Of a DNA stretch of 64,000 bases, positions 49,761 through 64,000 are shown in pieces. The translations under genes were made by a program, and so were the position numbers. The stretch is from Pseudomonadota bacterium (GTDB lineage: Bacteria; Pseudomonadota; Alphaproteobacteria; Micropepsales; Micropepsaceae): positions 1-64,000 of the forward strand of contig JAFEEQ010000003.1 of the NCBI GenBank assembly GCA_018241025.1. The letters are read 5' to 3'. Numbering within the stretch: the stretch's first letter is position 1; the number at the start of each line of letters is the position of its first letter. The notes beneath the pieces were generated by a model. The model had not been told where the DNA came from and did not search any database. It worked only from the letters and a program-made list of their open reading frames with translations.

Positions 49761-50882
49761 TCAGCTCAGCGACGCATAGCGCTTCAGGTGATGATCGGTG
49801 CTGCCGAACAGCGTATCGAGCATCGTCAGGCGCTTGAAGTAATGGCCGACATTGAGCTCGTCGGTCATGCCGATGCCGCCATGGATTTGCACCGCCTGCT
49901 GGCCGACGAAGCGGCCGCCCTTGCCGATGGTAACCTTGGCCGCCGACGCCGCCTTGGCGCGCTCCGCCGCTTCCTCCGCGAGCTTGAGCGTGACCATCAG
50001 CGTGATCGAGACGCCCTGCTCGTAATGCACGAACATGTCGACCATGCGGTGCTGGAGCGCCTGGAACTTTCCGATCGGAACGCCGAACTGCTTGCGGGTC
50101 TTGGAGTACTCGACCGTCGTATCGACGAGCACCTTCATGCAGCCGGTGGCTTCGGCGCAAGACGCGGCGATGGCTTCGTCGACGACCTGCTCGATCAGCG
50201 GCAAGCCGTTGTCGGCCGTACCGATGAGGGTGCCTTCGGCGTTCTCGAAGGTGACTTCGGAGGCACGCAGCGAGTCGACGGTCGGATAGTCGCGCACCGA
50301 CACGCCCTTGGCGTTCTTCGCAACGAGGAAGACGCTGACGCCCTTCTCATCGCGCTGGCCGCCAGCGGTGCGGGCGGTGACGATGAAGTGGTCGGCCCAA
50401 GGCGCGCCGATCACGACGGCCTTCTGGCCGTTGATGACATAGCCCGAGCCGCTCTTCTTCGCGGTGGTCGAGAGGTCGGCGAGATTGTAGCGGCCCTTGG
50501 GTTCGGCGAAGGCGAAGGCGAGCATCGTCTCGCCGGCCGCGATCTTGCCGAGCCATTCGGACTTCTGCGCATCCGTGCCGCCATGCTTGAAGAAACCGCC
50601 GCCGACCACGACGGTCGGGACGTAAGGCTCGACGACCAGCGCCTTGCCGAACTCCTCCATGATGATCAGCGACTCGACGGCACCGCCGCCGAGGCCGCCA
50701 TGCTCTTCGGCGATGGGCGCGGCGAGCAGGCCCAGCTCGGCGAACTGCTTCCAGTGCGCGGCGTCGCGGCCGAGATCGGAGCGGGTGAACTTGCGCCACT
50801 GCTCGAACTTGTAATTGTCGGCGAGATATTTCGAGACCGAGTTGCGAAGGAGGGTTTGTTCTTCGGTGTAGGAGAAATCCAT
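49761..50882 (-). CDS. Acyl-CoA dehydrogenase, small-subunit type (PimD-like)
   Basis: 373 residues. ATG 50882 with AAGGAAA upstream. FAD-dependent ACAD fold: MDFSYTEEQTLLRNSVSKYL, AFAEPKGRYNLADLSTTAK, YVINGQKAVVIGAPWADHFI, RKQFGVPIGKFQALQHRMVD and VQIHGGIGMTDELNVGHYFK. Paired with the ACAD upstream it resembles the two-subunit pimeloyl-CoA dehydrogenase (PimC/PimD) and other heteromeric ACADs for bulky or dicarboxylic acyl-CoA. A 116-base palindrome element lies between the two genes. Substrate inferred only from the pairing. Confidence 0.85.
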   Translation of the reverse strand: MDFSYTEEQTLLRNSVSKYLADNYKFEQWRKFTRSDLGRDAAHWKQFAELGLLAAPIAEEHGGLGGGAVESLIIMEEFGKALVVEPYVPTVVVGGGFFKHGGTDAQKSEWLGKIAAGETMLAFAFAEPKGRYNLADLSTTAKKSGSGYVINGQKAVVIGAPWADHFIVTARTAGGQRDEKGVSVFLVAKNAKGVSVRDYPTVDSLRASEVTFENAEGTLIGTADNGLPLIEQVVDEAIAASCAEATGCMKVLVDTTVEYSKTRKQFGVPIGKFQALQHRMVDMFVHYEQGVSITLMVTLKLAEEAAERAKAASAAKVTIGKGGRFVGQQAVQIHGGIGMTDELNVGHYFKRLTMLDTLFGSTDHHLKRYASLS

Positions 50883-51023: not shown

Positions 51024-52211
51024 TCAAAGTCCCAGCACCGCTTTCGCGATGATGTTGCGCTGGATCTCGTTCGATCCGCCGTAGATCGAGGTCTTGCGCA
51101 TGTTGAAGTAGTGGCCGGCGGCGCCGATCGCATAGTCGGGCCCGACCGCGGCGTTGTCGCCGAAGCCGCGCTCGTTCGGATAGGCGTAGTAGCCGATCGC
51201 CTCGACGGTGAGCTCGGTGATGCGCTGCTGAATCTCGGTGCCGCGGATCTTGAGGATCGAGCTTTCCGGTCCCGCCATATGGCCCTTGGACTCTGCCGCC
51301 AGCGTGCGCAGCTCGGTGAATTCGAGGGCGGCGAGATCGATCTCCAGATCGGCCACCTTGCGGGCGAAATCCGGATCGTCGATCAGCGGCGTGCCGTCGA
51401 TGGTCTCGGCCTCGCCGATTTCCTTCAGGCGCTGCACGGCCTTCTTCGAGCGCGCGACGCCGGCTATGCCGGAGCGTTCGTTGACGAGCAGGAACTTGGC
51501 ATAGGTCCAGCCTTTGTTTTCCTCGCCGACGCGGTTCTCGACCGGGACCTTCACGTTGTCGAAGAAGACCTCGTTCACCTCATGCGCGCCGTCGAGCACG
51601 ATGATCGGCTTCACGGTGATGCCCGGCGTCTTCATGTCGATGAGAAGGAAGGTGATGCCTTCCTGCTGCTTCACGTTCGCATCGGTGCGGACGAGGCAGA
51701 AGATCCAGTCGGCGAACTGCGCCAGCGTGGTCCAGGTCTTCTGGCCGTTGACGATGTAGTGGTCGCCTTCGCGCACCGCCTTGGTGCGCAGCGAAGCGAG
51801 GTCGGAGCCCGAGCCCGGCTCGGAGTAGCCCTGGCACCACCAGTCTTCACCGGAAAGGATGCGGGGCAGGAATTTCTTTTTCTGTTCGTCGTTGCCGAAG
51901 GTGAAGATCACCGGCGCGACCATGCTGAGACCGAAGGGCAGCGTCGTCGGCATCTCGGCGTTGGCCGTCTCTTCGTTGAAGATGTAGCGCTGGGTGACGT
52001 TCCAGCCGGTGCCGCCATATTCCTTCGGCCAGAGCGGCGCGACCCAGCCCTTCTTGTAGAGAAGCTTGTGCCAGGCGAGGTAATCCTCCTTGGAGCGGTC
52101 GGCACTTTCGGCCGCGCCCAGGCCCTTGGGCAGCTTCGGCTTCGCCTCGGCGATGAAGGCGCGAACCTCCTGGCGGAAGGCTTCTTCTGCGGGCGAAAAA
52201 CTCAAATCCAT
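51024..52211 (-). CDS. Acyl-CoA dehydrogenase, large-subunit type (PimC-like)
   Basis: 395 residues. MDLSFSPAEEAFRQEVRAFI, GWVAPLWPKEYGGTGWNVTQ, QGYSEPGSGSDLASLRTKAV (FAD and substrate loop), YIVNGQKTWTTLAQFADWIF and the C-terminal TSIYGGSNEIQRNIIAKAVL. The position that is Glu in short/medium-chain ACADs (IYEG) is Gly here, so the catalytic base must be elsewhere or in the partner subunit. First of the ACAD pair; a chorismate mutase gene lies 108 bases upstream on the same strand. Confidence 0.87.
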   Translation of the reverse strand: MDLSFSPAEEAFRQEVRAFIAEAKPKLPKGLGAAESADRSKEDYLAWHKLLYKKGWVAPLWPKEYGGTGWNVTQRYIFNEETANAEMPTTLPFGLSMVAPVIFTFGNDEQKKKFLPRILSGEDWWCQGYSEPGSGSDLASLRTKAVREGDHYIVNGQKTWTTLAQFADWIFCLVRTDANVKQQEGITFLLIDMKTPGITVKPIIVLDGAHEVNEVFFDNVKVPVENRVGEENKGWTYAKFLLVNERSGIAGVARSKKAVQRLKEIGEAETIDGTPLIDDPDFARKVADLEIDLAALEFTELRTLAAESKGHMAGPESSILKIRGTEIQQRITELTVEAIGYYAYPNERGFGDNAAVGPDYAIGAAGHYFNMRKTSIYGGSNEIQRNIIAKAVLGL

Positions 52212-52717: not shown

Positions 52718-53491
52718 ATGAAAGACCTGTTTTCGCTCGCCGGTAAGACCGCGCTGATCACCGGCGGCAGCCGCGGCATCGGCAAGATGATTGCCGAAGG
52801 CTTCCTCCATGCCGGCGCCAAGGTCTACATCTCGGCCCGCAAAGGCGGCGCGCTGGAAGAGACGGCGAAAGAGCTGTCCGCCATCGGGCCCTGCGTCGCG
52901 ATCACCAGCAACGCCTCGGGCGCGGACGGCGCCAAGGCGATGGCCGATGCCTATCTCAAGCACGAGAAGACGCTCGACATCCTGGTCAACAATGCCGGCG
53001 CCGCCTGGGGTGCGGATTTCGACGAATTCCCCGAGAGCGGCTGGGACAAGGTCATGGACCTCAACGTCAAGACGCCGTTCTTCCTGACCCAGGCGCTGCA
53101 CGGCGCGCTGAAAGCCGCGGGGTCGAAAGAGCGCCTCGCCAAGGTCATCAACATCGCGTCGATCGACGGCGTGTCGGTGAACATGCAGGAGACCTATTCC
53201 TATGCCGCCTCGAAGTCGGGGCTGATCCACCTGACCAAGCGCATGGCGATGCGGCTGATCAAGGACAACATCGCGGTGACCGCAATCGCGCCGGGCGCGT
53301 TTGCTTCCGACATGAATCGCGATGCGCGCGACCACGGCGACACGGTGAGCCGCGGAATTCCTGCCCGCCGCATCGGCACGGCGGAGGATATGGCCGGCGC
53401 CGCTATCTATCTGGCGTCGCGCGCGGGCGACTATGTCGTCGGCTCGACGGTGATCGTCGACGGCGGCGTGACCTGGGCGCGGGGGGCTTAA
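52718..53491 (+). CDS. Short-chain dehydrogenase (RhlG/FabG-like)
   Basis: 257 residues. TGGSRGIG NADP motif, DILVNNAGAAWGADFDEFPE, catalytic NIASIDG and SYAASKSGLIHLTK (YxxxK), C-terminal GSTVIVDGGVTWARGA. SNASGADGAKAMADAYLKHE and the acyl-type pocket resemble RhlG-like 3-oxoacyl reductases. The ATG 52718 follows GGGGAA. Divergent from chorismate mutase. Substrate unassigned. Confidence 0.85.
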   Translation: MKDLFSLAGKTALITGGSRGIGKMIAEGFLHAGAKVYISARKGGALEETAKELSAIGPCVAITSNASGADGAKAMADAYLKHEKTLDILVNNAGAAWGADFDEFPESGWDKVMDLNVKTPFFLTQALHGALKAAGSKERLAKVINIASIDGVSVNMQETYSYAASKSGLIHLTKRMAMRLIKDNIAVTAIAPGAFASDMNRDARDHGDTVSRGIPARRIGTAEDMAGAAIYLASRAGDYVVGSTVIVDGGVTWARGA

Positions 53492-53508: not shown

Positions 53509-53654
53509 CCGTCATGGCCGGATTTGTTCCGGCCATCCATGATCACCCAAGTCTGCATTCACCGAGCTTGCTCGGTGACGCACAGTCTTGATCTTCCTGC
53601 TGCATCGAGATCATGGATCCCCGGGACAAGCCCGGGGATGACGATGATTTTTTT
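53509..53654. repeat. Twin inverted hairpin, family A
   Basis: CCGTCATGGCCGGATTTGTT then CCGGCCATCCATGATC (53509-53544) and, inverted, GATCATGGATCCCCGGGACA then AGCCCGGGGATGACGATG (53609-53646) followed by seven T (53648-53654). The second arm plus T run could terminate the SDR transcript. Lies between convergent SDR and lysE-type genes; the remaining gap to 53730 holds nothing recognisable. Confidence 0.85.
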
Positions 53655-53729: not shown

Positions 53730-54353
53730 CTAGCGACGGATCGCGGCGAGGCCGACGCCCGCGCCGATCAGGAGCGAGCCGGCGACGCGGTCGGTGATGC
53801 GGGCGAAGCGCGGTTCGGCAGCGAGATGGGCGGCGCGTCCGGCAAGCGCGGCATAGGCGAACTGCACGCCGAACTCGATCACGACCGAGGTGACGGCGAG
53901 GATCGCGACCTGCGGCGCGATGGGCGCGTGCGGGTTGAAGAACTGCGGCAGCAGCGCGGTGAAAAACACGATCACTTTCGGGTTCGACATCTGCAGGATG
54001 AAGCCGTTCAGGAACAGGCGGCGGCCGGAGGCCGGCGTGGCGTCGGCGGCGCGGATGGAGAGCGACTTGGACTTGCCGAGAAAGGCGGAGATGCCGAGCC
54101 AGACAAGATAGGCGGCGCCGATCCACTTAATCGCGAAGAAGAGATTGTAGGAGGCAAGCAGGATCGCGGCGACGCCGGTGGCGGAGAGGATGAAATAGAC
54201 CGTGTTGGCAGCGAGGATGCCCAAGATGGAATAAACCGCCCTGCCCGCGCCGCGCGTCAGCGCCTGGCTGAGCACGAGCAGTACGGCCGGGCCGGGCGTG
54301 AGGCAGAGCACGAACTCGACGGCGAAGAAGGCTGTCCAGATTTGCCAGGTCAT
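53730..54353 (-). CDS. LysE/RhtB family exporter
   Basis: 207 residues, six helices. IWTAFFAVEFVLCLTPGPAV then LLVLSQALTRGAGRAVYSIL is the LysE signature; LSATGVAAILLASYNLFFAI, NGFILQMSNPKVIVFFTALL and PQFFNPH are typical of the RhtB subgroup. Exports amino acids or derivatives; substrate unknown. ATG 54353 is chosen because the N-terminus begins at helix 1; the long open frame upstream crosses the family B repeat. Confidence 0.88.
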   Translation of the reverse strand: MTWQIWTAFFAVEFVLCLTPGPAVLLVLSQALTRGAGRAVYSILGILAANTVYFILSATGVAAILLASYNLFFAIKWIGAAYLVWLGISAFLGKSKSLSIRAADATPASGRRLFLNGFILQMSNPKVIVFFTALLPQFFNPHAPIAPQVAILAVTSVVIEFGVQFAYAALAGRAAHLAAEPRFARITDRVAGSLLIGAGVGLAAIRR

Positions 54354-54373
54354 GTCGATAAATCCACCACCGA

Positions 54374-54503
54374 ACCTCATCCTGAGCTTGCCGAAGGATG
54401 GCAGTCCTGCACCGTTCGCGCCGCCAGGTTCGCTGTCGCTCTCCTGGCCTTCGCACGCTGTCGCTACGAAGCCCTCGCCCTTCGACAAGCTCAGGGTGAG
54501 GGT
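54374..54503. repeat. Twin inverted repeat, family B
   Basis: ACCTCATCCTGAGCTTGCCG with AAGGATGG (54374-54401) and, inverted, CCCTCGCCCTTCGACAAGCT with CAGGGTGAGGGT (54472-54503), 70 bases apart. Between the GH5 stop and the exporter start on the minus strand. Confidence 0.82.
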
Positions 54504-54520
54504 CATTGTATGAGCGATCC

Positions 54521-56470
54521 TTACAACCGCGTCACCACCACCATCTTCGGACCCGGCGTTTTCGCGCGGATATGCAACAGCGTTTCGGTGATCCATTCGG
54601 CGTGGCAAGTGTCGGGGCAGTCGACCTTGGCGCCGCCGGGATAATGGATGAGGGGGACGAAGATCTCGGTCGGGGCGCGGAGCTTCGGGTCGGCGTCGAA
54701 GACGAGCGTGAACTCCGCCGTGCGGCGGTCGAAGGACATGCGCTTCGGCTCGCCCTGAATGTGACGGGCGAAGGGGCGCGAGAAACCTTTGACGGCGCGG
54801 CCGCCGGAGCTGGGGTCGTTGGGGCCGGTGCTCTGGTCGGCGGAATAGATCGAGAGGTCTTCCTGGTTCCAGTTGTCGCCGGTGGCGGCATCGTTGTGGT
54901 TGGCGGCGGTGTAATTCCACTGGGTCGACGAGATGAGCAGCTTGTCCATCGCATCGTACATCAGGCCGAGCGCGAGCTCGTGGCGCTTCCACGGGGCCGA
55001 CGAGCGGTCGCCCTGCGCCCATTCGGCATAGGCGGCGCCATCGTCGAGATCGTAGGGGATGCCGAATTCACCGATCAGCGTCGGCGCGCCGTCGGAGCTC
55101 AGCGTATCGGCGAGGCGGGCGATGTGCGCGAGCTGGGCGGTGTATTGTTCGGCGACGGCGCCCTGCCCGGCTGCGTCATCGAGATTGTCCTTGAGCTCGC
55201 GCGGAGCGAAGCGCTTCGTGGCAAGCGTGCGGATGTCGTACCAGTGGCTGGCGTTGACCGTGCGCTCGGGCGCGCCGGGCGCGAAGCCTTCGCCGGCGAA
55301 AGCGCGGAACGGACTGACCTCAGCGAAGACGAGCCAGTCGGCGCGGATTTCGCGGATCGCGTCCGCGACGCGGTGGAAGAACGGATTCATGTAGTCGGCT
55401 TCGATGGAAAGCTTGCGGCCGCCGCGATGTGAGAAATACTGCGGATCGCGCACGCTGCCATCGGCGGCATAGGCGCCGGCCTGTTCGAAGGGACAGGGGC
55501 GCATCCAGATCGAGATGGCGTTGGGGTTGAGACGCTCCTTGCCGATCTCTTTCACGGTGAAGGTTTCGCTGTCGAGGGCGCGGACGGGGATGTCGCGCGG
55601 CGTGCCGCGTGCGATGAGCAGCGCATCGAGCGGACTGATGGCGAGGCCGGGCATAATCGCGGCCATGCCGGTGCTGTCTTCGCCTTCGCCATGGCTGAGC
55701 TTCTCGCCGATCCAGCCTTCGCCGGGCTCGTTCAGCGTGTCGAAGCCGATGACATGCGGGAGGTCCTTCACCCGTTCGGCGACGGACCGCATCGCGCCGA
55801 TGTAATGGCCCTGCAGATAGTCCTGGACGTTCACGCCGTCGATGAGGAAGTCCGGCGTCATGTCGCGGCCGGCGAAGAACAGCGTCCACATGATGCCGTT
55901 GGCCGGGAGGCGATAGTTCGAGGACCAGGTCATCGTGGGATAGGCGTCCTGGCGGCCGCCTTTTGCGTAGTCGTATTTGTATTGCATCACATGCGCGGCG
56001 CCGGCGGCGTGGAATTTCGTGAAGTCGAGGCCGACCGCTTCGAAGGTCCAGCCCGGGGCACCGTCGCCGCCGGTCATACGGCTCCAGACGTCCTGATGAA
56101 AATCGATGAAGATGTAGAAGCCATACTCCGCGGCCTTGGCGCAGATCGTTGCGAAGTAGTCGAGATATTCGGTGTCGTACTGGCCGGGTCCGGCGTGTTC
56201 GACCGCTTCCCAGGTGGTGAGAAGGCGCAGGCAGTTGAAGCCCCAATGGCGCAGGCGCGCGAAATGCTCGTCCGCTTCGGCGAGCGGAAACGGGCGGCCG
56301 ACGAAGGAGATGGCGCGGTGGTTGGAGAAATCGGACGGGTGCTGCGTGCCGCCATCCGGGAATGGGACCTTGCAGTCGCCGCCGAGATTGACGCCGCGCA
56401 GGATGACGCGGCGCCCCGCCTCATCCACGAACCAGCGGCCTTTCATGTCGAGACGGCCCAACTTCGCCAT
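54521..56470 (-). CDS. Glycoside hydrolase family 5, endoglycoceramidase/steryl-glucosidase-like
   Basis: 649 residues, no signal peptide, so probably cytosolic. VILRGVNLGGDCKVPFPDG, FNCLRLLTTWEAVEHAGPGQ, YGFYIFIDFHQDVWSRMTGG then DGAPGWT, acid/base E248 in FDTLNEPGEGW and nucleophile E468 in PTLIGEFGIPYD place it in clan GH-A, family 5. The DGAPGWT block and a C-terminal beta domain (about 560-649) resemble subfamily 12, known for glucosylceramide and steryl-glucoside hydrolysis. GGAAG lies upstream of the ATG. Divergent from the PhyH gene across 54 bases. Confidence 0.8.
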   Translation of the reverse strand: MAKLGRLDMKGRWFVDEAGRRVILRGVNLGGDCKVPFPDGGTQHPSDFSNHRAISFVGRPFPLAEADEHFARLRHWGFNCLRLLTTWEAVEHAGPGQYDTEYLDYFATICAKAAEYGFYIFIDFHQDVWSRMTGGDGAPGWTFEAVGLDFTKFHAAGAAHVMQYKYDYAKGGRQDAYPTMTWSSNYRLPANGIMWTLFFAGRDMTPDFLIDGVNVQDYLQGHYIGAMRSVAERVKDLPHVIGFDTLNEPGEGWIGEKLSHGEGEDSTGMAAIMPGLAISPLDALLIARGTPRDIPVRALDSETFTVKEIGKERLNPNAISIWMRPCPFEQAGAYAADGSVRDPQYFSHRGGRKLSIEADYMNPFFHRVADAIREIRADWLVFAEVSPFRAFAGEGFAPGAPERTVNASHWYDIRTLATKRFAPRELKDNLDDAAGQGAVAEQYTAQLAHIARLADTLSSDGAPTLIGEFGIPYDLDDGAAYAEWAQGDRSSAPWKRHELALGLMYDAMDKLLISSTQWNYTAANHNDAATGDNWNQEDLSIYSADQSTGPNDPSSGGRAVKGFSRPFARHIQGEPKRMSFDRRTAEFTLVFDADPKLRAPTEIFVPLIHYPGGAKVDCPDTCHAEWITETLLHIRAKTPGPKMVVVTRL

Positions 56471-56524
56471 GGCGCTTCCTGACCCCGTTTTCTATGCTGA
56501 CGAACAGAACAAATCCGGTGTGCC

Positions 56525-57334
56525 ATGTCCACGAGCCTCAAGAAACGCGAGCCCAAGATCCATCCGCTCAATGTCGGTTTCGAATGGCACATGCCGGAGC
56601 CGGAAAATCTGCAAGCGCTGACCGAGGCACAATACCGCCAGTTCGACGCAGAAGGCTTCGTGAAGATCGAGAATGTGTTCTCGCCGGAAGAGATCGCGGC
56701 AGTGACGACGGCGATCGATCCGCTCGAAGCCGAGAGCGAGGACTTCCTGCGCTCGCAGGGCGGACGCATCTCGATCTCGGAAGCCGATGTCATCACCTTC
56801 ACCACGCATATCGTGAAGAAGTCCGATGTGCTGAAGCGCTTCGCGGCACATCCGAAGATCCGCGCGATCTGCCACGACCTGATCGGCGGCAAGGTGCGGC
56901 TCTACTGGGATCAGTCGGTCTACAAGAAGACGGGCAAGGCGCAGGAATTCCCCTGGCACCAGGACAACGGCTACACCTTCATCGAGCCGCAGCAGTACCT
57001 CACGCTGTGGATTCCGCTGGTCGATGTCGACGAGAACAACGGCTGCCCGTGGATCGCGCCGGGCGTGCACAAGGGCGGCACGCTGGAGCATTGGCTGACC
57101 TCGATTGGGCTCAAATGCATGGAAGACGCGCCCGACGCGGTCTGCGTGCCGGGCAAGGCGGGCGATGTGATCGCCTTCTCCTCGCTCGCGCCGCATCGTA
57201 CCGGACCGAATCTCGTGAAGGGCTCGGTGCGCAAGGCCTATATCCTGCAATACGCGCCCGACGGCGCCTACACGATCCGCAGCGGCGTGAAGGCGCTGCA
57301 GGACGACGCCGAGCGGCAATTCCTGATCTCATAA
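56525..57334 (+). CDS. Phytanoyl-CoA dioxygenase (PhyH) family protein
   Basis: 269 residues, Fe(II)/2-oxoglutarate oxygenase fold. The iron triad is H145 and D147 (FPWHQDNGYTF) and H224 (LAPHRTGPNLV); R225 or nearby basic residues would hold 2-oxoglutarate. GFVKIENVFSPEEI and WIPLVDVDENNGCPWIAPGV are typical of PhyH. The family hydroxylates branched acyl-CoAs, terpenoids, sterol-like compounds or small metabolites. A sulfatase gene follows 95 bases downstream on the same strand. Confidence 0.87.
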   Translation: MSTSLKKREPKIHPLNVGFEWHMPEPENLQALTEAQYRQFDAEGFVKIENVFSPEEIAAVTTAIDPLEAESEDFLRSQGGRISISEADVITFTTHIVKKSDVLKRFAAHPKIRAICHDLIGGKVRLYWDQSVYKKTGKAQEFPWHQDNGYTFIEPQQYLTLWIPLVDVDENNGCPWIAPGVHKGGTLEHWLTSIGLKCMEDAPDAVCVPGKAGDVIAFSSLAPHRTGPNLVKGSVRKAYILQYAPDGAYTIRSGVKALQDDAERQFLIS

Positions 57335-57429
57335 TCTTATCTCCCAGAGGTGGGTGTTCCGGAACCGGAATAGCAATTCACTTTCTGGTCTGACCATGCT
57401 AGAAACCCCGCCATAACGAGGGGGAAAGC

Positions 57430-59091
57430 ATGGCCATCAGGAAGCGGTGGATCGCGCTCGGCGCGGTCGCGGTTGTGGCGCTCGCGGGTTACGTCGCGTT
57501 CCAGAACTACTGGTACTACATCCCCGGCATCATCGGCCGGATCAAGGATCCGGTGCTGCCGAACCATCCGGTGACCTGGGCGGCAGGGCCGGCGACGGCA
57601 CTCGCCGGTCCGCGCAAGCCCAACGTGGTCTTCATCCTCGCCGACGATCTCGGCTTCAACGATCTGTCGTTCAACGGCGGCGGTGTCGCCGGCGGCGTGG
57701 TGCCGACGCCGCGGATCAACTCCATCGCGCGCGACGGCACGATCTTCCGCAACGGCTATGCTGGCAATGCGACCTGCGCCCCCTCGCGCGCGGCGATCAT
57801 GACCGGCCGCTATGCCACGCGCATGGGCTTCGAGTTCACGCCGACACCGCAGCAGTTCGAGAAGCTGGTCGCCACCTATGTCTATCCCGACGGCAGTCAC
57901 GGCATCTATGACGCGGCCGACGAGGACAAATATCCGATCGACGCCAACACACTGACAGTGCCGCCGCGCGAGATCATGATCGGCACACTGATGAAGAGGG
58001 CGGGCTATCACACCCTCTTCCTCGGCAAGTGGCATCTCGGCGGCACGCCGGACACGCGGCCGGAAGCCAAGGGCTTCGACGAGACACTGAGTTTCCTCGC
58101 CGGCGCCTCGCTCTATGCCAACACCGGCGATCCGAACATCGAGGAGTCGCGCCAGGATTTCGATCCGATCGACAAGTTCCTCTGGGCCAACCTGACCTTC
58201 AGCGTCGAGAACAATGGCGGCCAGCATTTCGAGCCGTCGGAGTACATGACCGACTATCTCGGCAAGGAAGCGGTGAAGGCGATCCACGCCAACCGCAACC
58301 GGCCGTTCTTCATGTATCTCGCCTTCAACGCCGTGCACACGCCGCTGCAGGCGCTGAAGAGCGACTACGACTCCCTGCCGATGATCAAGGATCACCGTCT
58401 CCGGGTGTATGCGGCAATGGTGAAGTCGCTCGAGCGCAATGTCGGCCGCGTGCTGGACGAACTGAAGGCCGACGGCCTCGACCAGAACACGCTGGTGATC
58501 TTCACCAGCGACAATGGCGGCGCCTATTACATCGGCCTGCCGGAGATCAACAAACCCTATCGCGGCTGGAAGGCGACCTTCTTCGAAGGCGGCATTCATG
58601 TGCCGTTCTTCATGAAATGGCCGGGCACGATCCCGGCGGGCGCGACCTATGACAAGCCGGTCGGCCATGTCGACATCTTCTCGACCACGGCGGCCGCGGC
58701 GGGCGCGGCGCTGCCGACGGATCGCAAGATCGACGGCGTGAACCTGCTGCCCTATCTCACCGGCAAGGACGCCGACGCGCCGCACAAGTCGCTGTTCTTC
58801 CGCTCGGGCCCCTACGCCACGCTGCTGGAAGGCGACTGGAAGATCCAGGTGATGGACAAGCCGTTCCACAAGGTCTGGCTCTTCAACCTGAAGAACGATC
58901 CGACCGAAAAGGTGAATCTGGCTTCGGCCAATCCGGCACAGACCGCAATGTTGCTGAAGGAACTCCGGCGTCAGAGTGCGGAACAGGCGAAACCGCTCTG
59001 GCCCTCTTTGCTCTTAGGACCGCAGGCAGTCGACCGGCCGCTCTCCTATCCGGCCAAGCCCGGCGAGGAAGTGATCTGGTGGGCGAACTGA
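57430..59091 (+). CDS. Arylsulfatase-type sulfatase
   Basis: 553 residues. One N-terminal membrane anchor or uncleaved signal (WIALGAVAVVALAGYVAFQN). PNVVFILADDLGFNDLSFNG supplies the Ca site (D72, D73). The formylglycine motif is C116 in NATCAPSRAAIMTGRYATR (C-x-P-S-R), so it needs a formylglycine-generating enzyme. HTLFLGKWHLGGTPDTRPEA and VIFTSDNGGAYYIGLPEINK complete the active site. Periplasmic hydrolysis of sulfate esters is expected. A C-terminal segment is lipid or membrane neutral. Same strand as the PhyH and BVMO genes. Confidence 0.9.
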   Translation: MAIRKRWIALGAVAVVALAGYVAFQNYWYYIPGIIGRIKDPVLPNHPVTWAAGPATALAGPRKPNVVFILADDLGFNDLSFNGGGVAGGVVPTPRINSIARDGTIFRNGYAGNATCAPSRAAIMTGRYATRMGFEFTPTPQQFEKLVATYVYPDGSHGIYDAADEDKYPIDANTLTVPPREIMIGTLMKRAGYHTLFLGKWHLGGTPDTRPEAKGFDETLSFLAGASLYANTGDPNIEESRQDFDPIDKFLWANLTFSVENNGGQHFEPSEYMTDYLGKEAVKAIHANRNRPFFMYLAFNAVHTPLQALKSDYDSLPMIKDHRLRVYAAMVKSLERNVGRVLDELKADGLDQNTLVIFTSDNGGAYYIGLPEINKPYRGWKATFFEGGIHVPFFMKWPGTIPAGATYDKPVGHVDIFSTTAAAAGAALPTDRKIDGVNLLPYLTGKDADAPHKSLFFRSGPYATLLEGDWKIQVMDKPFHKVWLFNLKNDPTEKVNLASANPAQTAMLLKELRRQSAEQAKPLWPSLLLGPQAVDRPLSYPAKPGEEVIWWAN

Positions 59092-59122
59092 CGTAGGGGA
59101 ATTGTCGTTGCCCCCTGCTCTT

Positions 59123-59217
59123 CCGTCATCCCCGGCCTCGTGCCGGGGATCCATGATCAACTTGATGCATGGGTGATCTTGGATGGCCGGGACAGGCCCG
59201 GCCATGACGTTCTTTTT
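59123..59217. repeat. Twin inverted hairpin, family A
   Basis: CCGTCATCCCCGGCCTCGTG then CCGGGGATCCATGATC (59123-59158) and, inverted, TTGGATGGCCGGGACAGGCC then CGGCCATGACG (59179-59209) followed by TTCTTTTT. It lies between the sulfatase and BVMO genes and could end the sulfatase transcript. Confidence 0.85.
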
Positions 59218-59268
59218 ATGGCTGCGAAATCTCCCTAAGCTCTCCCAAAGAACATCCGGGAGTGAGCC

Positions 59269-61206
59269 ATGTCCGCGATCCGCGAAACCGACGACGCCTT
59301 GAAGGCCGCCATCGAAGAGGCGCATCTGCCGAGCCTGATCGCCGCGCTGGTGCACATCACCGGCGATGCCGGGCTGATCTCCGGCGACATCAAGCCGGTC
59401 TATGACTTCTTCGGCGACGGCCAGGGCGGCCTGACCGACGAGCAGCGGGCCGCGACCAAGGCGCGGGCGCTGGCCGCGCTGAAGGGCCTGCGCGACGGAA
59501 AGATCAAGCCGGTGCCGCTCTCCAGCGACACCGTGCACAAGATCATGAGCTTCGTCGCCGGCGCCGAAATCCCGGAACGCTACATCCCCTTCCTCGAAGA
59601 AGAGCTCGCGCTCGAAGGCAAGGATCTGAAGGCCGTCCACGGCCTCGACGAAGTGCCGGCCAATCTCAAGCACGACTTCAAGGTGCTGATCGTCGGTGCC
59701 GGGATGTCGGGCCTCTTGGCGGCGATCCGCATGAAGCAGGCGGGCATCGCCTATACCGTGATCGAGAAGAACGCCGATGTCGGCGGGACCTGGATGGTCA
59801 ACGCCTATCCCGGCTGCCGCGTCGACAATCCGAACCACCTCTATTCCTATTCCTTCGAGCCGAACCACGACTGGCCCTATCACTTCTCGACCCAGCCGCT
59901 CTTGTGGAAATACTTCCAGGGCGTCGCGGACAAATACGCGCTCCGCCCCAACATCCGCTTCAATACCGAGGTGATCGAGAGCGTCTATGACGAGGCGCAT
60001 GGCCTGTGGAAGACGCGTGTGAAGGGCAAGGACGGCAAGGAAGAGACCCTCGTCTCCAACGTCGTCATCACCGCCGTCGGCCAGCTCAGCCGTCCGCGCC
60101 TGCCGGACATCAAGGGCATCGAGAGCTTCAAGGGCCAATCCTTCCACTCGGCGACCTGGGATCATTCGGTCGACCTGAAAGGCAAGCGCGTCGCGGTGAT
60201 CGGGACGGGGGCGAGCGCCTTCCAGTTCGTGCCCGAGATCGCGCCTGTGGTCGGACACCTGACGGTGTTTCAGCGCAACGCGCCCTGGCTCGGGCCGACG
60301 CCGAACTATCACGACAAGGTATCGGAGGGGAAAAAGTGGCTGCTCAAGCACGTCCCGACCTATGACAAGTGGTACCGCTTCTGGCTGTGGTGGATGCTGA
60401 CCGACGGCATCTACGAGTTCGTCAAATCCGATCCCGACTGGACGTCGCGCAAGGACAGCGTCGGGGCGCAGAACGACATGCTCCGCGAGATGCTGTCGCA
60501 ATACACGATCAGCCAGCTCGAAGGCCGGCCCGATCTCCAGAAGGCCGCGGTGCCGAGCTATCCGCCCGGCGGCAAGCGCAGCGTGCGCGATAACGGCGTG
60601 TGGCTTGCGGCCCTGAAGCGGCCGAATGTCGAAACCGTCACAGACGGCATCGCCGAGATCACGCCGACCGGCCTGAAGACCAAGGACGGCCGGAGCTTCG
60701 ACGTCGATGTCATCATCTATGGCACCGGCTTCACCGCGAGCCAGTTCCTCGAGCCGATGAAATTCAAGGGCAAGGGCGGCGTCGACCTGCACGAGCAGTG
60801 GAACGGCGATGCCCGTGCCTATCTCGGCATCACGGTGCCGAACTTCCCCAACCTGTTCATCATGTACGGCCCGAACACCAACATCGTGGTCAACGGCTCG
60901 ATTATCTTCTTCTCGGAATGCGAGATCCGCTACATCCAGGGGCTGATCGAGCTGCTGCTGAAGTCCAACGCCAGCGCGATCGAGGTGAAGAAGGCCGTGC
61001 ACGACGTGTTCAACGACAAGGTCGATGCCCTGAACAGCCAGATGGCGTGGGGCGCGCCGCAGGTGACGAGCTGGTACAAGAACGCCAAGGGCCGCGTGTC
61101 GCAGAACTGGCCCTGGCCGCTGGTGGATTACTGGAACGCGACGCGGGTGCCGGACCCGAACGACTACGATCTCGGCGGCGCACCGGAACGGCAGGCGGCG
61201 GAATAA
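59269..61206 (+). CDS. Flavoprotein Baeyer-Villiger monooxygenase (HAPMO-like)
   Basis: 645 residues. A 135-residue helical N-terminal extension precedes the FAD motif VLIVGAGMSG (143-148 GAGMSG) and KNADVGGTWMVNAYPGCRVD. The BVMO fingerprint FxGxxxHxxxW[P/D] is FKGQSFHSATWD (F287, G289, H293, W297, D298). The NADPH motif is IGTGASAFQF (312-317). The size and N-terminal extension match 4-hydroxyacetophenone monooxygenase-type enzymes. It inserts oxygen next to a ketone; the substrate is unknown. Followed after 1 base by the nitroreductase. Confidence 0.9.
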   Translation: MSAIRETDDALKAAIEEAHLPSLIAALVHITGDAGLISGDIKPVYDFFGDGQGGLTDEQRAATKARALAALKGLRDGKIKPVPLSSDTVHKIMSFVAGAEIPERYIPFLEEELALEGKDLKAVHGLDEVPANLKHDFKVLIVGAGMSGLLAAIRMKQAGIAYTVIEKNADVGGTWMVNAYPGCRVDNPNHLYSYSFEPNHDWPYHFSTQPLLWKYFQGVADKYALRPNIRFNTEVIESVYDEAHGLWKTRVKGKDGKEETLVSNVVITAVGQLSRPRLPDIKGIESFKGQSFHSATWDHSVDLKGKRVAVIGTGASAFQFVPEIAPVVGHLTVFQRNAPWLGPTPNYHDKVSEGKKWLLKHVPTYDKWYRFWLWWMLTDGIYEFVKSDPDWTSRKDSVGAQNDMLREMLSQYTISQLEGRPDLQKAAVPSYPPGGKRSVRDNGVWLAALKRPNVETVTDGIAEITPTGLKTKDGRSFDVDVIIYGTGFTASQFLEPMKFKGKGGVDLHEQWNGDARAYLGITVPNFPNLFIMYGPNTNIVVNGSIIFFSECEIRYIQGLIELLLKSNASAIEVKKAVHDVFNDKVDALNSQMAWGAPQVTSWYKNAKGRVSQNWPWPLVDYWNATRVPDPNDYDLGGAPERQAAE

Positions 61207-61207
61207 C

Positions 61208-61876
61208 GTGAACTTCATCGATGTCTTGCACGCGCGCAAATCCGTGCGCGCCTTCGCCGACAAGCCGGTTTCACGCGAAACGGTGGAAGAGCTGTTGCGG
61301 CTCGCCAGCCGCTCGCCTTCGGGCACGAACATCCAGCCCTGGAAGGTGCATATCGTCGCCGGCGATGTGCGGCGGCGGCTGGAGGAAGAAGTCCTGGCGC
61401 ATCGCGAGACCAACCCGCCGGACACGGGCGCGGAATTCCCGCGCATGGGCAAGCGCAAGGAGCCCTACCAAACCCGCATGCGCAAGCTCGGCAAGGACAT
61501 GTATTCGCTGATCGGCATCCCGAAGGGCGACCAGGCGGCGAACTGGGCGCAATGGGGCCGGAACTACAAATTCTTCGACGCGCCGGTCGGCCTCATCTTC
61601 ACCGTCGACAAGGATCTCGACCGCATGAGCTATGTCGATATCGGCATGTTCATGCAGAGCTTCATGCTGGCGGCGAAGGCGCACGGTCTCGACACCTGCG
61701 CCCAGGGCGCCTGGAACAACTACTGGAGCGTGACGCGCCGCGTGCTGAACGTGCCGGAGGACGAGTTCATCATCGCCGGCATCTCGCTCGGCTATGCCGA
61801 CGACAGCCATCCGGTGAACACGCTGGTGGCGGAACGCGAGCCGCTGGACAGCTTCGCGACGTTTCACGGGTTTTGA
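61208..61876 (+). CDS. Nitroreductase family FMN oxidoreductase
   Basis: 222 residues. RKSVRAFADKPVSRETVEEL and ASRSPSGTNIQPWKVHIVAG provide the FMN phosphate and ring contacts; DIGMFMQSFMLAAKAHGLDT and IAGISLGYADDSHPVN are typical of NADPH-dependent nitroreductases. GTG start one base after the BVMO stop, so the two are coupled. Possibly reduces an enone, quinone or nitro group; the partnership with the BVMO suggests a role in the same degradation route. Confidence 0.87.
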   Translation: MNFIDVLHARKSVRAFADKPVSRETVEELLRLASRSPSGTNIQPWKVHIVAGDVRRRLEEEVLAHRETNPPDTGAEFPRMGKRKEPYQTRMRKLGKDMYSLIGIPKGDQAANWAQWGRNYKFFDAPVGLIFTVDKDLDRMSYVDIGMFMQSFMLAAKAHGLDTCAQGAWNNYWSVTRRVLNVPEDEFIIAGISLGYADDSHPVNTLVAEREPLDSFATFHGF

Positions 61877-61879
61877 GCG

Positions 61880-62233
61880 TCAGCGCGCGCGCAGCGACAT
61901 CGCCGTCAGAATGGCGCCGATGATGAAGAGCGTGCCGATCAGGGCATAGGTGCCGAGGTTCGAGCCGCCCTGCAGCGCAGTCGGCAGGAAAGTGCGATAG
62001 AGCCCAGCGGCGAGCGCGAGCCAGCCGACGATCGTGATCAGCACCGGCCAGCGCCAGGTCCAGACGTTGTGCGCCCGCAGGATGGCCAGCCCGGCGACAA
62101 ACAGCAGGCAACCATTGAGATAGACCAGCGTTGCCGGCGCTCCCTCCCAGATGCGCAGGTTGATGGTCTCGGACGATGTCACGGCGAGCAGCGTCGGGCC
62201 GATCAATCCGGCCAGGGATTTGGAGTTGGACAT
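61880..62233 (-). CDS. Four-helix membrane protein, unknown
   Basis: 117 residues from ATG 62233. Helices: LAGLIGPTLLAVTSSETINL, LVYLNGCLLFVAGLAILRAH, WPVLITIVGWLALAAGLYRT and LIGTLFIIGAILTAMSLRAR. No family named. An alternative GTG at 62308 or 62311 would overlap the upstream SDR stop as GTGA and add 25 residues, allowing coupled translation; I cannot decide between them. Convergent with the nitroreductase, gap 3 bases. Confidence 0.62.
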   Translation of the reverse strand: MSNSKSLAGLIGPTLLAVTSSETINLRIWEGAPATLVYLNGCLLFVAGLAILRAHNVWTWRWPVLITIVGWLALAAGLYRTFLPTALQGGSNLGTYALIGTLFIIGAILTAMSLRAR

Positions 62234-62304
62234 CACGGCAGTCTGACCGGCGTATTCTGGCCAGCGGTTGATCGGGGTCAAACTTCCGCGCTTCGCGAGG
62301 CCGA

Positions 62305-63003
62305 TCACCACACCTCGCCGTAAGGCCTGATCTCGACGTTGAAGCTCCAGGCGCTTTTGTCCTGATGGGCGAGATGGAAGATCTCGTCGGCGATGGCGCC
62401 GGGCTTGATGAAGAAGGCGTCCGGCTTGTCCTTGAAGCGCTCGCGGGTCCAGGGCAGATCGATCACCGCGTCGATCACGACATAGGCGACGTGGACGCCC
62501 TTCGGCCCTGCGTCGCGTGCGATCGACTCGGCGAGGATGCGCTGCGCCGCCTTGGTCGGCGCGAAGCCCGCGAACCCGGCGCGGCCGCGCTGCGCCGAGG
62601 TGTTGCCGGTCGCGATCAGAGCGCCCTGCCCGCGCGCGATCATGCCGGGCACGAAGGCGCGCGCGAGATAGAGCAGGCCCATCGCATTGACCTGGAAATT
62701 GCGGTTGAGCACCTCCGGATCGATGTCGAGAAACGTGCCGAAGGCGCCGCCGACGGCGTTGTGGATCACGACCGATGCCTCGCCGAGATCACGGGCGATG
62801 GCTGCGGCCGTGGTTTCGACCTGCTTCGGATCGGAGACGTCGCAGGGATAGGCCTTCGTGCCCTCGATCTCCCTCTCAAGCCCCGCGAGCCGGTCGGCAT
62901 TGCGGGCCAGCATGGCAATCCGGTAGCCGCCAGCGGCGAAGCGACGGGCCATGGCGGCACCGGTACCGGGGCCGACTCCGGTGATGACGGCGAGTTTGGT
63001 CAT
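62305..63003 (-). CDS. SDR-fold protein lacking the catalytic tyrosine
   Basis: 232 residues. The cofactor motif TGVGPGTG is kept, as are SVVIHNAVGGAFGTF (an HNA variant of NNAG) and the active-site lysine K151. The YxxxK tyrosine is replaced by F147 (GFAPTKAAQ). GVHVAYVVIDAVIDLPWTRE follows. Some related sequences annotated as glucose/ribitol-type or SDR family lack this Tyr; the protein may bind cofactor without normal carbonyl reduction. GGAGA is upstream of the ATG. Confidence 0.8.
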   Translation of the reverse strand: MTKLAVITGVGPGTGAAMARRFAAGGYRIAMLARNADRLAGLEREIEGTKAYPCDVSDPKQVETTAAAIARDLGEASVVIHNAVGGAFGTFLDIDPEVLNRNFQVNAMGLLYLARAFVPGMIARGQGALIATGNTSAQRGRAGFAGFAPTKAAQRILAESIARDAGPKGVHVAYVVIDAVIDLPWTRERFKDKPDAFFIKPGAIADEIFHLAHQDKSAWSFNVEIRPYGEVW

Positions 63004-63128
63004 GTGGGGTCTCCGTGGTTGGAGATTATATGGTGGATATCATATCACTTGGGGACTGCGTTTGGGACATGCCCCCTCCACCATCGCTGCGCGACGGTTT
63101 CCCGCTTCGCGGAGGAAGAAAAGTCAAG

Positions 63129-64000
63129 TCAGCGCAGGAAATCGAGGGCGTCGAGATCGAGGATCTGATCGGTAGCGCTCTTGATCATCGCCATGAACAT
63201 GTCGTCGCCGCGCGCGGTCTGCTGCACAAGCACCGATGCATAAAATGCCACCGTGAACAGCGCGAAGGCACGGCTGCGATAGTCGCGCCAGAGCGTGTCA
63301 AAATCGTAGTCCCGAACGCCGAGTTCCTTCAGTCGCTCATGATATTCGCGGACGAGTTCGGTCTCGACCGCGCGGCGCTGATCGCGCGGCAGCGCGCCGG
63401 CGATGAAATAGGTCACGTCGGTGACGCCGGGACCGAAGGCGAGCGACTGCCAGTCGAGCATCGTGAACGGCCGCCCGCCCTTCGCGCTCGCGAACATCAT
63501 GTTGTCCGGCCGGTAGTCGATATGGACCAGCGATTTCGGGCCCTTGTAGTACGCATTGTAGGTGTCGAAGTTGTCGATCAGCGCATTGCCGACGCGCCGC
63601 GCATCGTCGCTGAGGCGCGCGTCGTAGCGGGCGCAGAACATCTGCCACAGATTGCGGATCGCATTCGGGTCGGCCGAGCCGCGCTGGCCGGCGGCACGCG
63701 TGCCGCTGACCCAGGCGAGATCCTCGATCGCGGCGTCGCCCCAATGCGAGGCGTGCAGGTTCGCCGCTTCGCGCACCGCGAGCCGCGCCTGGTCCAGCGT
63801 GCAGCCCTTGAGCTGGTCGCCCTGCTCCGCCGGCGACAGGTCTTCCATCATCAGGACGAATTCGCTGGTCTCCGGATCGACCTCCGTGAACCAGACTTTC
63901 GGCGTCGAGATCAGCGCCGTCGGCGCGAGGTGCTTGTAGAAGTTCACTTCGCGGATGTAGTTGCCGAGCGCGATGCCGGTGTTGCGGCTGTCGTCCTGCG
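63129..64000 (-). CDS. Phosphotransferase (APH/EcKinase-like) family protein, cut by window end
   Basis: At least 290 residues of the C-terminal part; the frame stays open to base 64000, so the N-terminus is missing. YIREVNFYKHLAPTALISTP, FVLMMEDLSPAEQGDQLKGC, catalytic loop LVHIDYRPDNMMFA (HxDxxxxN) and FTMLDWQSLAFGPGVTDVTY (DFE-like DWQ). It belongs to the aminoglycoside-phosphotransferase-like fold found beside acyl-CoA dehydrogenases and SDRs in fatty or steroid catabolic clusters; antibiotic resistance is unlikely. Possible acyl-alcohol or hydroxyacyl kinase. Confidence 0.83.
   Translation of the reverse strand, partial: QDDSRNTGIALGNYIREVNFYKHLAPTALISTPKVWFTEVDPETSEFVLMMEDLSPAEQGDQLKGCTLDQARLAVREAANLHASHWGDAAIEDLAWVSGTRAAGQRGSADPNAIRNLWQMFCARYDARLSDDARRVGNALIDNFDTYNAYYKGPKSLVHIDYRPDNMMFASAKGGRPFTMLDWQSLAFGPGVTDVTYFIAGALPRDQRRAVETELVREYHERLKELGVRDYDFDTLWRDYRSRAFALFTVAFYASVLVQQTARGDDMFMAMIKSATDQILDLDALDFLR

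Follow-up and report, generated by a model that had tools for sequence, protein, structure and literature searches.

At the far end of the window analysed here (the whole stretch of 64,000 nucleotides from the start of contig JAFEEQ010000003.1, a Micropepsaceae genome of the Alphaproteobacteria), genes for a glycoside hydrolase of family 5 (GH5), a PhyH dioxygenase, a sulfatase, a Baeyer-Villiger monooxygenase (BVMO), a nitroreductase, a short-chain dehydrogenase/reductase (SDR) and a kinase lie together. The first-pass annotation took them as one candidate pathway for sulfated or glycosylated hydrophobic compounds. Do these genes form one pathway, and if not, which of them belong together? 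We found that the strongest link in the region is that of GH5 with PhyH; this module is the useful finding, and the remainder is an ordinary catabolic neighbourhood.

GH5 and PhyH as neighbours

The two genes are divergent, and two transcription units run apart from the gap between them:

54521-56470, minus strand: GH5_12-like, sterylglucosidase-like beta-glucosidase (PF00150 and PF18564)
56471-56524, no strand: divergent intergenic gap between GH5 and PhyH, 54 bp by gap measurement
56525-57334, plus strand: PhyH-A, Fe(II)/2-oxoglutarate dioxygenase (PF05721)

The 54-bp gap is likely a shared control region; promoter and terminator scans gave no signal above chance.

Among 84,980 species genomes scanned there were 80 GH5 loci, 77 of them outside the genus, and nine of these 77 have an orthologue of the window PhyH within 10 kb (Sphingomonas, Hephaestia, Sphingopyxis, Blastomonas, Caulobacter, Phenylobacterium and two further lineages; identities 47–66%). 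By comparison, an even sample of the class (289 genomes, including the window's own and its close relative G100) has PhyH-A in 4 of its 287 members from outside the genus, a background rate that is class-wide rather than specific to Sphingomonadales or Caulobacterales. Because of this difference, chance proximity of GH5 and PhyH is very unlikely. Mapped on the GH5 tree, linkage to PhyH requires no fewer than 5 changes, so the pairing has either recurred or been repeatedly lost. In Sphingopyxis, Caulobacter and Phenylobacterium the two genes stand in tight runs with an MFS_2 transporter, a TonB receptor and additional PhyHs; in Sphingopyxis panaciterrae, for example, MFS_2 is followed after 66 bp by PhyH-C, PhyH-A, PhyH-B and GH5, all in one direction with 4-bp overlaps each. 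A TonB receptor, a GntR/FCD regulator and a 290-aa protein without a Pfam match recur across the GH5-PhyH clusters. In the literature we found no paper joining PhyH with a glycosidase, TonB or saponin, nor BVMO with PhyH and sulfatase; a wider search likewise brought up nothing to the point.

The best solved-protein matches of the GH5, which had been called steryl-glucosidase-like from the outset, are Cryptococcus Sgl1 and Aspergillus SglA (PDB 7lpo/8exd). Its placement in GH5_12 is based on these fungal matches rather than on a subfamily model, and fungal enzymes of the Sgl1/SglA type we take, from the family literature, to be GH5_12 members. Sgl1 was also the best fold match of the predicted model (Z 33.6, 595 of 649 residues superposed, 30% identity). 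We sought a cap region, one enclosing a Y-shaped hydrophobic pocket as in a GH5_12 sterylglucosidase, through superposition length, which was 595 residues on Sgl1 versus ~410 on endoglycoceramidases in a model whose mean pLDDT (predicted local distance difference test) is only 76.9, with weak loops. The catalytic pair E248 and E468 aligns to Glu270 and Glu520 of Sgl1 and is invariant in 13 homologues, as are the glucose-site residues K34, H125, D127, N247, Y411, W518 and E537. Their Sgl1 counterparts are Lys47, His142, Asp144, Asn269, Tyr453, Trp570 and Glu587 (glucose-binding and catalytic residues from PMC8497620; the tyrosine was matched through the SglA alignment), and all comparable ones are kept. 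By predicted fold and active-site residues the window GH5 is genuinely sterylglucosidase-like. Assignment as endoglycoceramidase I was rejected (NCBIfam NF051847, 89.3 bits against an equivalog cut-off of 700 bits), and no signal peptide was evident on inspection. The aglycone cannot be read from the family, since GH5_12 also holds a flavonoid beta-glucosidase and a clade dominated by bacteria, noted already in 2012 (both in passages of PMC3526467).

In PhyH-A the iron triad H145, D147 and H224 is invariant in 17 sequences, and the model (pLDDT 90.7) matches SnoK with a fold Z of 24.7. Two loci of PhyH-A elsewhere bear on its role. In another family (genome G111) it lies among genes for a sulfatase, a monooxygenase resembling flavin-containing monooxygenases (FMO), a zinc alcohol dehydrogenase, a P450, MFS_2, PhyH-C and an SDR, the sulfatase and FMO not being close homologues of the window's (25–27% identity); in G172 its neighbours are an SDR, an AMP ligase, a thiolase, a nitroreductase-family protein and genes like those for acyl-CoA dehydrogenase (ACAD). 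These contexts support a role for PhyH-A in the breakdown of hydrophobic compounds, some perhaps conjugated. Plasmid matches of PhyH reached ~31% identity at best, with no useful annotated plasmid context. Tomato-associated Sphingobium plasmids carry a GH5 homologue that is annotated as two open reading frames (ORFs) and lies near inositol genes and arylsulfatases; we therefore did not accept it as evidence of tomatine degradation.

The surrounding genes and their separability

Gene calls in the window rest on Pfam domains, the list of ORFs and codon-based gene prediction, which agree. The features around the GH5-PhyH pair are:

49761-50882, minus strand: acyl-CoA dehydrogenase (acadS), coding ORF with 82–85% orthologues in G027, G028, G046 and G100
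51024-52211, minus strand: acyl-CoA dehydrogenase, pimeloyl-CoA dehydrogenase large-subunit-like, Pfam ACAD domains
52718-53491, plus strand: SDR1, tyrosine present (YAASK), Pfam adh_short, 83–93% orthologues
53730-54386 or 54506, minus strand: LysE/RhtB-family exporter (PF01810)
57430-59091, plus strand: S1-type sulfatase with N-terminal hydrophobic anchor (PF00884)
59269-61206, plus strand: type I BVMO of HAPMO-like layout (PF00743 and others, from residue 138)
61208-61876, plus strand: nitroreductase-family flavoenzyme (PF00881)
61880-62311, minus strand: membrane-like ORF of 143 aa, called by coding score
62305-63003, minus strand: tyrosine-less SDR2 (FAPTK; PF00106)
63129-63998, minus strand: APH/EcKL-like kinase, 3' part (PF02958 and PF01636)

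All seven genes named at the outset are thus there, each an open frame in which Pfam finds the expected domains, and the catalytic motifs of PhyH, sulfatase, BVMO and kinase are intact. The gene of the APH-like kinase, however, is cut by the window end: the start lies ~210 bases beyond, and the full frame is 359 aa. The gene list itself was incomplete, having missed the 143-aa ORF, which had no match in Pfam and PHROG comparison and overlaps the SDR2 gene by 7 bp. The ACAD at 51024-52211 scores 523.5 bits against TIGR03204, below the 623.9 cut-off. Catabolic genes continue past the window (L057 1302-14750), with SnoaL-like, FAD monooxygenase, 2-oxoglutarate dioxygenase, SDR, aspartyl-protease-like, amidohydrolase and CMD genes and, further on, a second SDR gene and IclR-like, CoA-transferase, ACAD and hydratase genes (the second SDR, IclR, ACAD and hydratase named by inspection), so the window covers just the opening part of a longer catabolic stretch.

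Comparison of 69 species genomes of the genus, six of which carry PhyH, showed how the block is put together. In G100, where two overlapping stretches of a single contig were read, the order is ech-acadS-acadL-SDR1-LysE-GH5-PhyH-cytochrome bd-sulfatase-BVMO-nitroreductase, followed by an amidohydrolase, SDR2 and the kinase; G049 holds the same gene set over two contigs (the kinase lying outside that comparison). G027, G028 and G046 keep acadS-acadL-SDR1-PhyH-bd-BVMO, two of them also nitroreductase and SDR2, with the cytochrome bd genes between PhyH and BVMO. GH5, LysE and sulfatase are absent from the locus in these three, and neither GH5 nor sulfatase was found elsewhere in their genomes at the thresholds used. 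GH5 with LysE, and the sulfatase, are therefore separable pieces, each missing from relatives that keep the rest. The exporter, downstream of GH5 on the same strand, adjoins GH5 also in G049 and G100. The ACADs, SDR and exporter had been counted with the set as lying just upstream; they are present, but the ACAD-SDR part, in the same order in G100, is shared chromosomal backbone, and acadS occurs in relatives with or without GH5. Elsewhere, G004 carries a GH5 without PhyH at an unrelated locus, and in G002 and G052 the sulfatase occupies a different locus, near a PLP lyase and what look like bd oxidase genes (by inspection).

Three further observations concern the architecture of the block. 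The cytochrome bd oxidase pair inside the block of relatives (L107 13158-15865; L039 5829-8512) is missing at the window locus. In G049, the sulfatase has a 44-residue PhyH tail upstream of it (L041 13465-13596), with the full PhyH on another contig, a sign of partial duplication or of an assembly break. Two pairs of inverted palindromes resembling REP (repetitive extragenic palindromic) elements (CGTCAT..CCGG..CCGG..ATCCA), the sole such pairs within the window, bracket LysE-GH5-PhyH-sulfatase at 53510-53643 and 59124-59209; we rejected them as ancestral cassette borders, the pattern having given none in the G100 stretches with equal gene order.

BVMO and nitroreductase form a second tight pair, kept in five species. 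The nitroreductase starts 1 bp after the BVMO, and its orthologue beside BVMO is 83–87% identical in G027, G046 and G100 and 78% in G049. The BVMO has the type I fingerprint FKGQSFHSATWD at residue 287 (FxGxxxHxxxW[P/D] pattern), flanked by the Rossmann motifs GAGMSG at 143 and GTGASA at 312, and an N-terminal extension of ~135 residues (Pfam domains begin at 137–140; genus homologues align from residues 3–11), which bears out the proposed HAPMO-like layout; its best solved relatives are PAMO, OTEMO and CHMO. The tyrosine-less SDR was correctly read: FAPTK replaces YxxxK in SDR2. Since Phe or Leu is kept at the Tyr position in four orthologues, SDR2 may be a non-catalytic or altered SDR. The kinase motif HxDxxxxN is intact (HIDYRPDN).

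The sulfatase, hydrophobic at its N-terminus, carries the formylglycine site CAPSR at residue 116, and the same genome encodes formylglycine-generating enzyme (FGE; PF03781, 217 and 190 bits), so that both marks of an S1 sulfatase, CxPSR and FGE, are found. Steryl sulfatase was rejected as its closest solved relative (147–148 bits, versus 288 bits for the carrageenan sulfatases 6prm and 6bia). Across the class, the recurrent neighbour of the sulfatase is its maturation enzyme FGE, not GH5, PhyH or BVMO: an FGE-type gene adjoins it in 11 of 23 loci (one member Pfam-confirmed), as FGE does in G052, and a GH5, PhyH or BVMO orthologue is seen only in G100, in the same block. BVMO-like genes near sulfatases (3/20 loci) were not accepted as linkage, such genomes holding many FMO-family genes.

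What the region may do

On balance, and with little more than even confidence, we favour a catabolic neighbourhood built from separable units, GH5(LysE)/PhyH, an independent BVMO module and an independent sulfatase, in which a glucosidase and a dioxygenase act on an imported hydrophobic glycoside. The substrate, the order of steps, their place in the cell and any joint action of units 1 and 2 on one compound are what we infer here. In unit 1 (GH5, with LysE, divergent from PhyH), a cytosolic retaining beta-glucosidase would take one glucose off the imported hydrophobic glycoside, and the PhyH Fe(II)/2-oxoglutarate dioxygenase would oxidise the aglycone, or the glycoside ahead of cleavage; this unit probably contributes to the degradation of hydrophobic compounds from plants or microbes that carry sugars. 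Unit 2 would comprise the BVMO-nitroreductase pair, SDR2 and the APH/EcKL kinase from the opposite strand, and more catabolic genes past the window; the BVMO would put oxygen beside a ketone, and hydrolysis and CoA steps would then supply beta-oxidation. In this genus the BVMO module may extend the route of unit 1, with CoA-dependent beta-oxidation last. In unit 3, a membrane-anchored, FGE-matured S1 sulfatase would desulfate outside the cytoplasm, with no tie to units 1 and 2.

Several points weigh against this proposal. The background for PhyH-A is the class-wide rate given above, and the four class-sample genomes outside the genus that carry PhyH-A lack GH5, so the two are not obligate partners. 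Neither the window nor the ~58 kb beyond it yielded an MFS_2 transporter, and the sole TonB-receptor-like match over that range lies 42 kb away, which leaves import unexplained. Nor can the substrates of BVMO and PhyH be read from sequence.

A bolder extension, which we put forward tentatively, is an undescribed bacterial pathway for hydrophobic beta-glucosides, possibly of sterols or triterpenoids. It would combine a bacterial GH5_12 sterylglucosidase with a dedicated PhyH set (PhyH-A, with PhyH-B and PhyH-C in Sphingomonadales and Caulobacterales), present in this genus in a reduced form beside, and maybe coupled to, the BVMO module.

We consider it unlikely that the whole set is one integrated pathway in which sulfated and glucosylated conjugates of sterol-, hopanoid- or terpenoid-like type lose their sulfate and glucose, are hydroxylated and, after cleavage by the BVMO, enter beta-oxidation. 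All the pieces do stand together in the window and G100, the distant PhyH-A of G111 is surrounded by sulfatase, flavin monooxygenase, SDR, P450 and MFS_2, and in the class sample the sulfatase occurs in 9/11 GH5 genomes versus 27/386 overall. This co-occurrence is suggestive only, since sulfatase and GH5 sit at far-apart loci and it is confined to few families. Against one pathway, GH5+LysE and the sulfatase are each dispensable in close relatives, and the sulfatase's partner is FGE. A single pathway operon would consist of co-oriented, co-inherited genes; here the genes lie on alternating strands, which rules out one transcript, and three relatives lack GH5, LysE and sulfatase at the locus. 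The co-occurrence check suggested by the first-pass annotation thus came out divided, the set recurring in G100 and G049 and GH5-PhyH in other orders, but not in those three relatives, and its idea of one pathway with exactly this set was not supported. Its guess of steroids is likewise not indicated, the sulfatase being nearer to carrageenan than to steryl sulfatases. KshA (PF19298) had no match in the genome, in a search whose sensitivity is little tested (the control set hit one genome only, below cut-off); classical steroid-ring (9,10-seco) degradation is therefore unlikely, while side-chain or sterol-glucoside use is not argued against.

Also improbable, in our view, is that GH5 and PhyH serve soluble plant phenolic (flavonoid-type) or other non-steroid glycosides, with BVMO, nitroreductase, kinase and sulfatase as unrelated neighbours. 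The flavonoid beta-glucosidase reported within GH5_12 in part of PMC3526467 would fit, as would GH5 homologues of Brevundimonas and Caulobacter (L170, L171, L178, L181, L189) that lie with MFS_2, tannase/feruloyl esterase, carboxylesterase, TetR and GH78 rhamnosidase in what looks like a locus for acylated rhamnoside (flavonoid-type) utilisation. Rhizobium GH5 homologues adjoin carbohydrate ABC transporters, a context that points to soluble glycosides. However, these contexts fall on branches of the GH5 tree other than the window's, no rhamnosidase, esterase or sugar transporter adjoins the genes in the window, and fold coverage favours the capped Sgl1 form.

That independent genes were joined by ordinary genome rearrangement without common function is most improbable. 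The conserved backbone order of the upstream genes, the alternating strands and the REP-like palindromes at both edges would suit that reading, but GH5-PhyH linkage recurs in tight runs of divergent lineages, and five species retain BVMO and nitroreductase as a pair.

Should GH5 and PhyH-A prove to be one module, their gene context would assign a testable role to the bacterial half of GH5_12, whose fungal relatives are targets for drugs. Such a module would also point to a way in which Alphaproteobacteria living in soil, in water or with plants make use of sterols, terpenoids or phenolics in glycosylated form; the full window set should not be taken for one pathway.

Comparison with known systems

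The window BVMO resembles HAPMO-type enzymes, whose N-terminal extension is noted in PMC10028610, in that extension and in the type I fingerprint; it is set beside HAPMO by layout rather than by direct sequence comparison, and differs in being paired with a nitroreductase. ACAD10/ACAD11 and LvaA, for which kinase activity on 4-hydroxyacyl-CoA is described (PMC11342911), resemble the window in having an APH-like kinase, marked by HxDxxxxN, in a context of beta-oxidation. The window kinase, likened to them by motif and setting, is EcKL-like and neither fused to nor adjoining an ACAD. With the S1 carrageenan sulfatases the window sulfatase has the CxPSR site in common; it is alphaproteobacterial, with a hydrophobic N-terminal anchor, and FGE adjoins it in other genomes.

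The closest likeness of the window GH5 to fungal Sgl1/EGCrP2 and SglA is a near whole-protein fold with both catalytic Glu and the glucose-site Lys, His, Asp, Asn, Tyr, Trp and Glu; unlike them it belongs to a bacterial clade, is ~130–150 residues shorter and stands in a catabolic context, its activity on steryl glucosides being putative. To the bacterial GH5_12 clade of PMC3526467, described there in passages without gene context, the pairing with PhyH is the addition made here.

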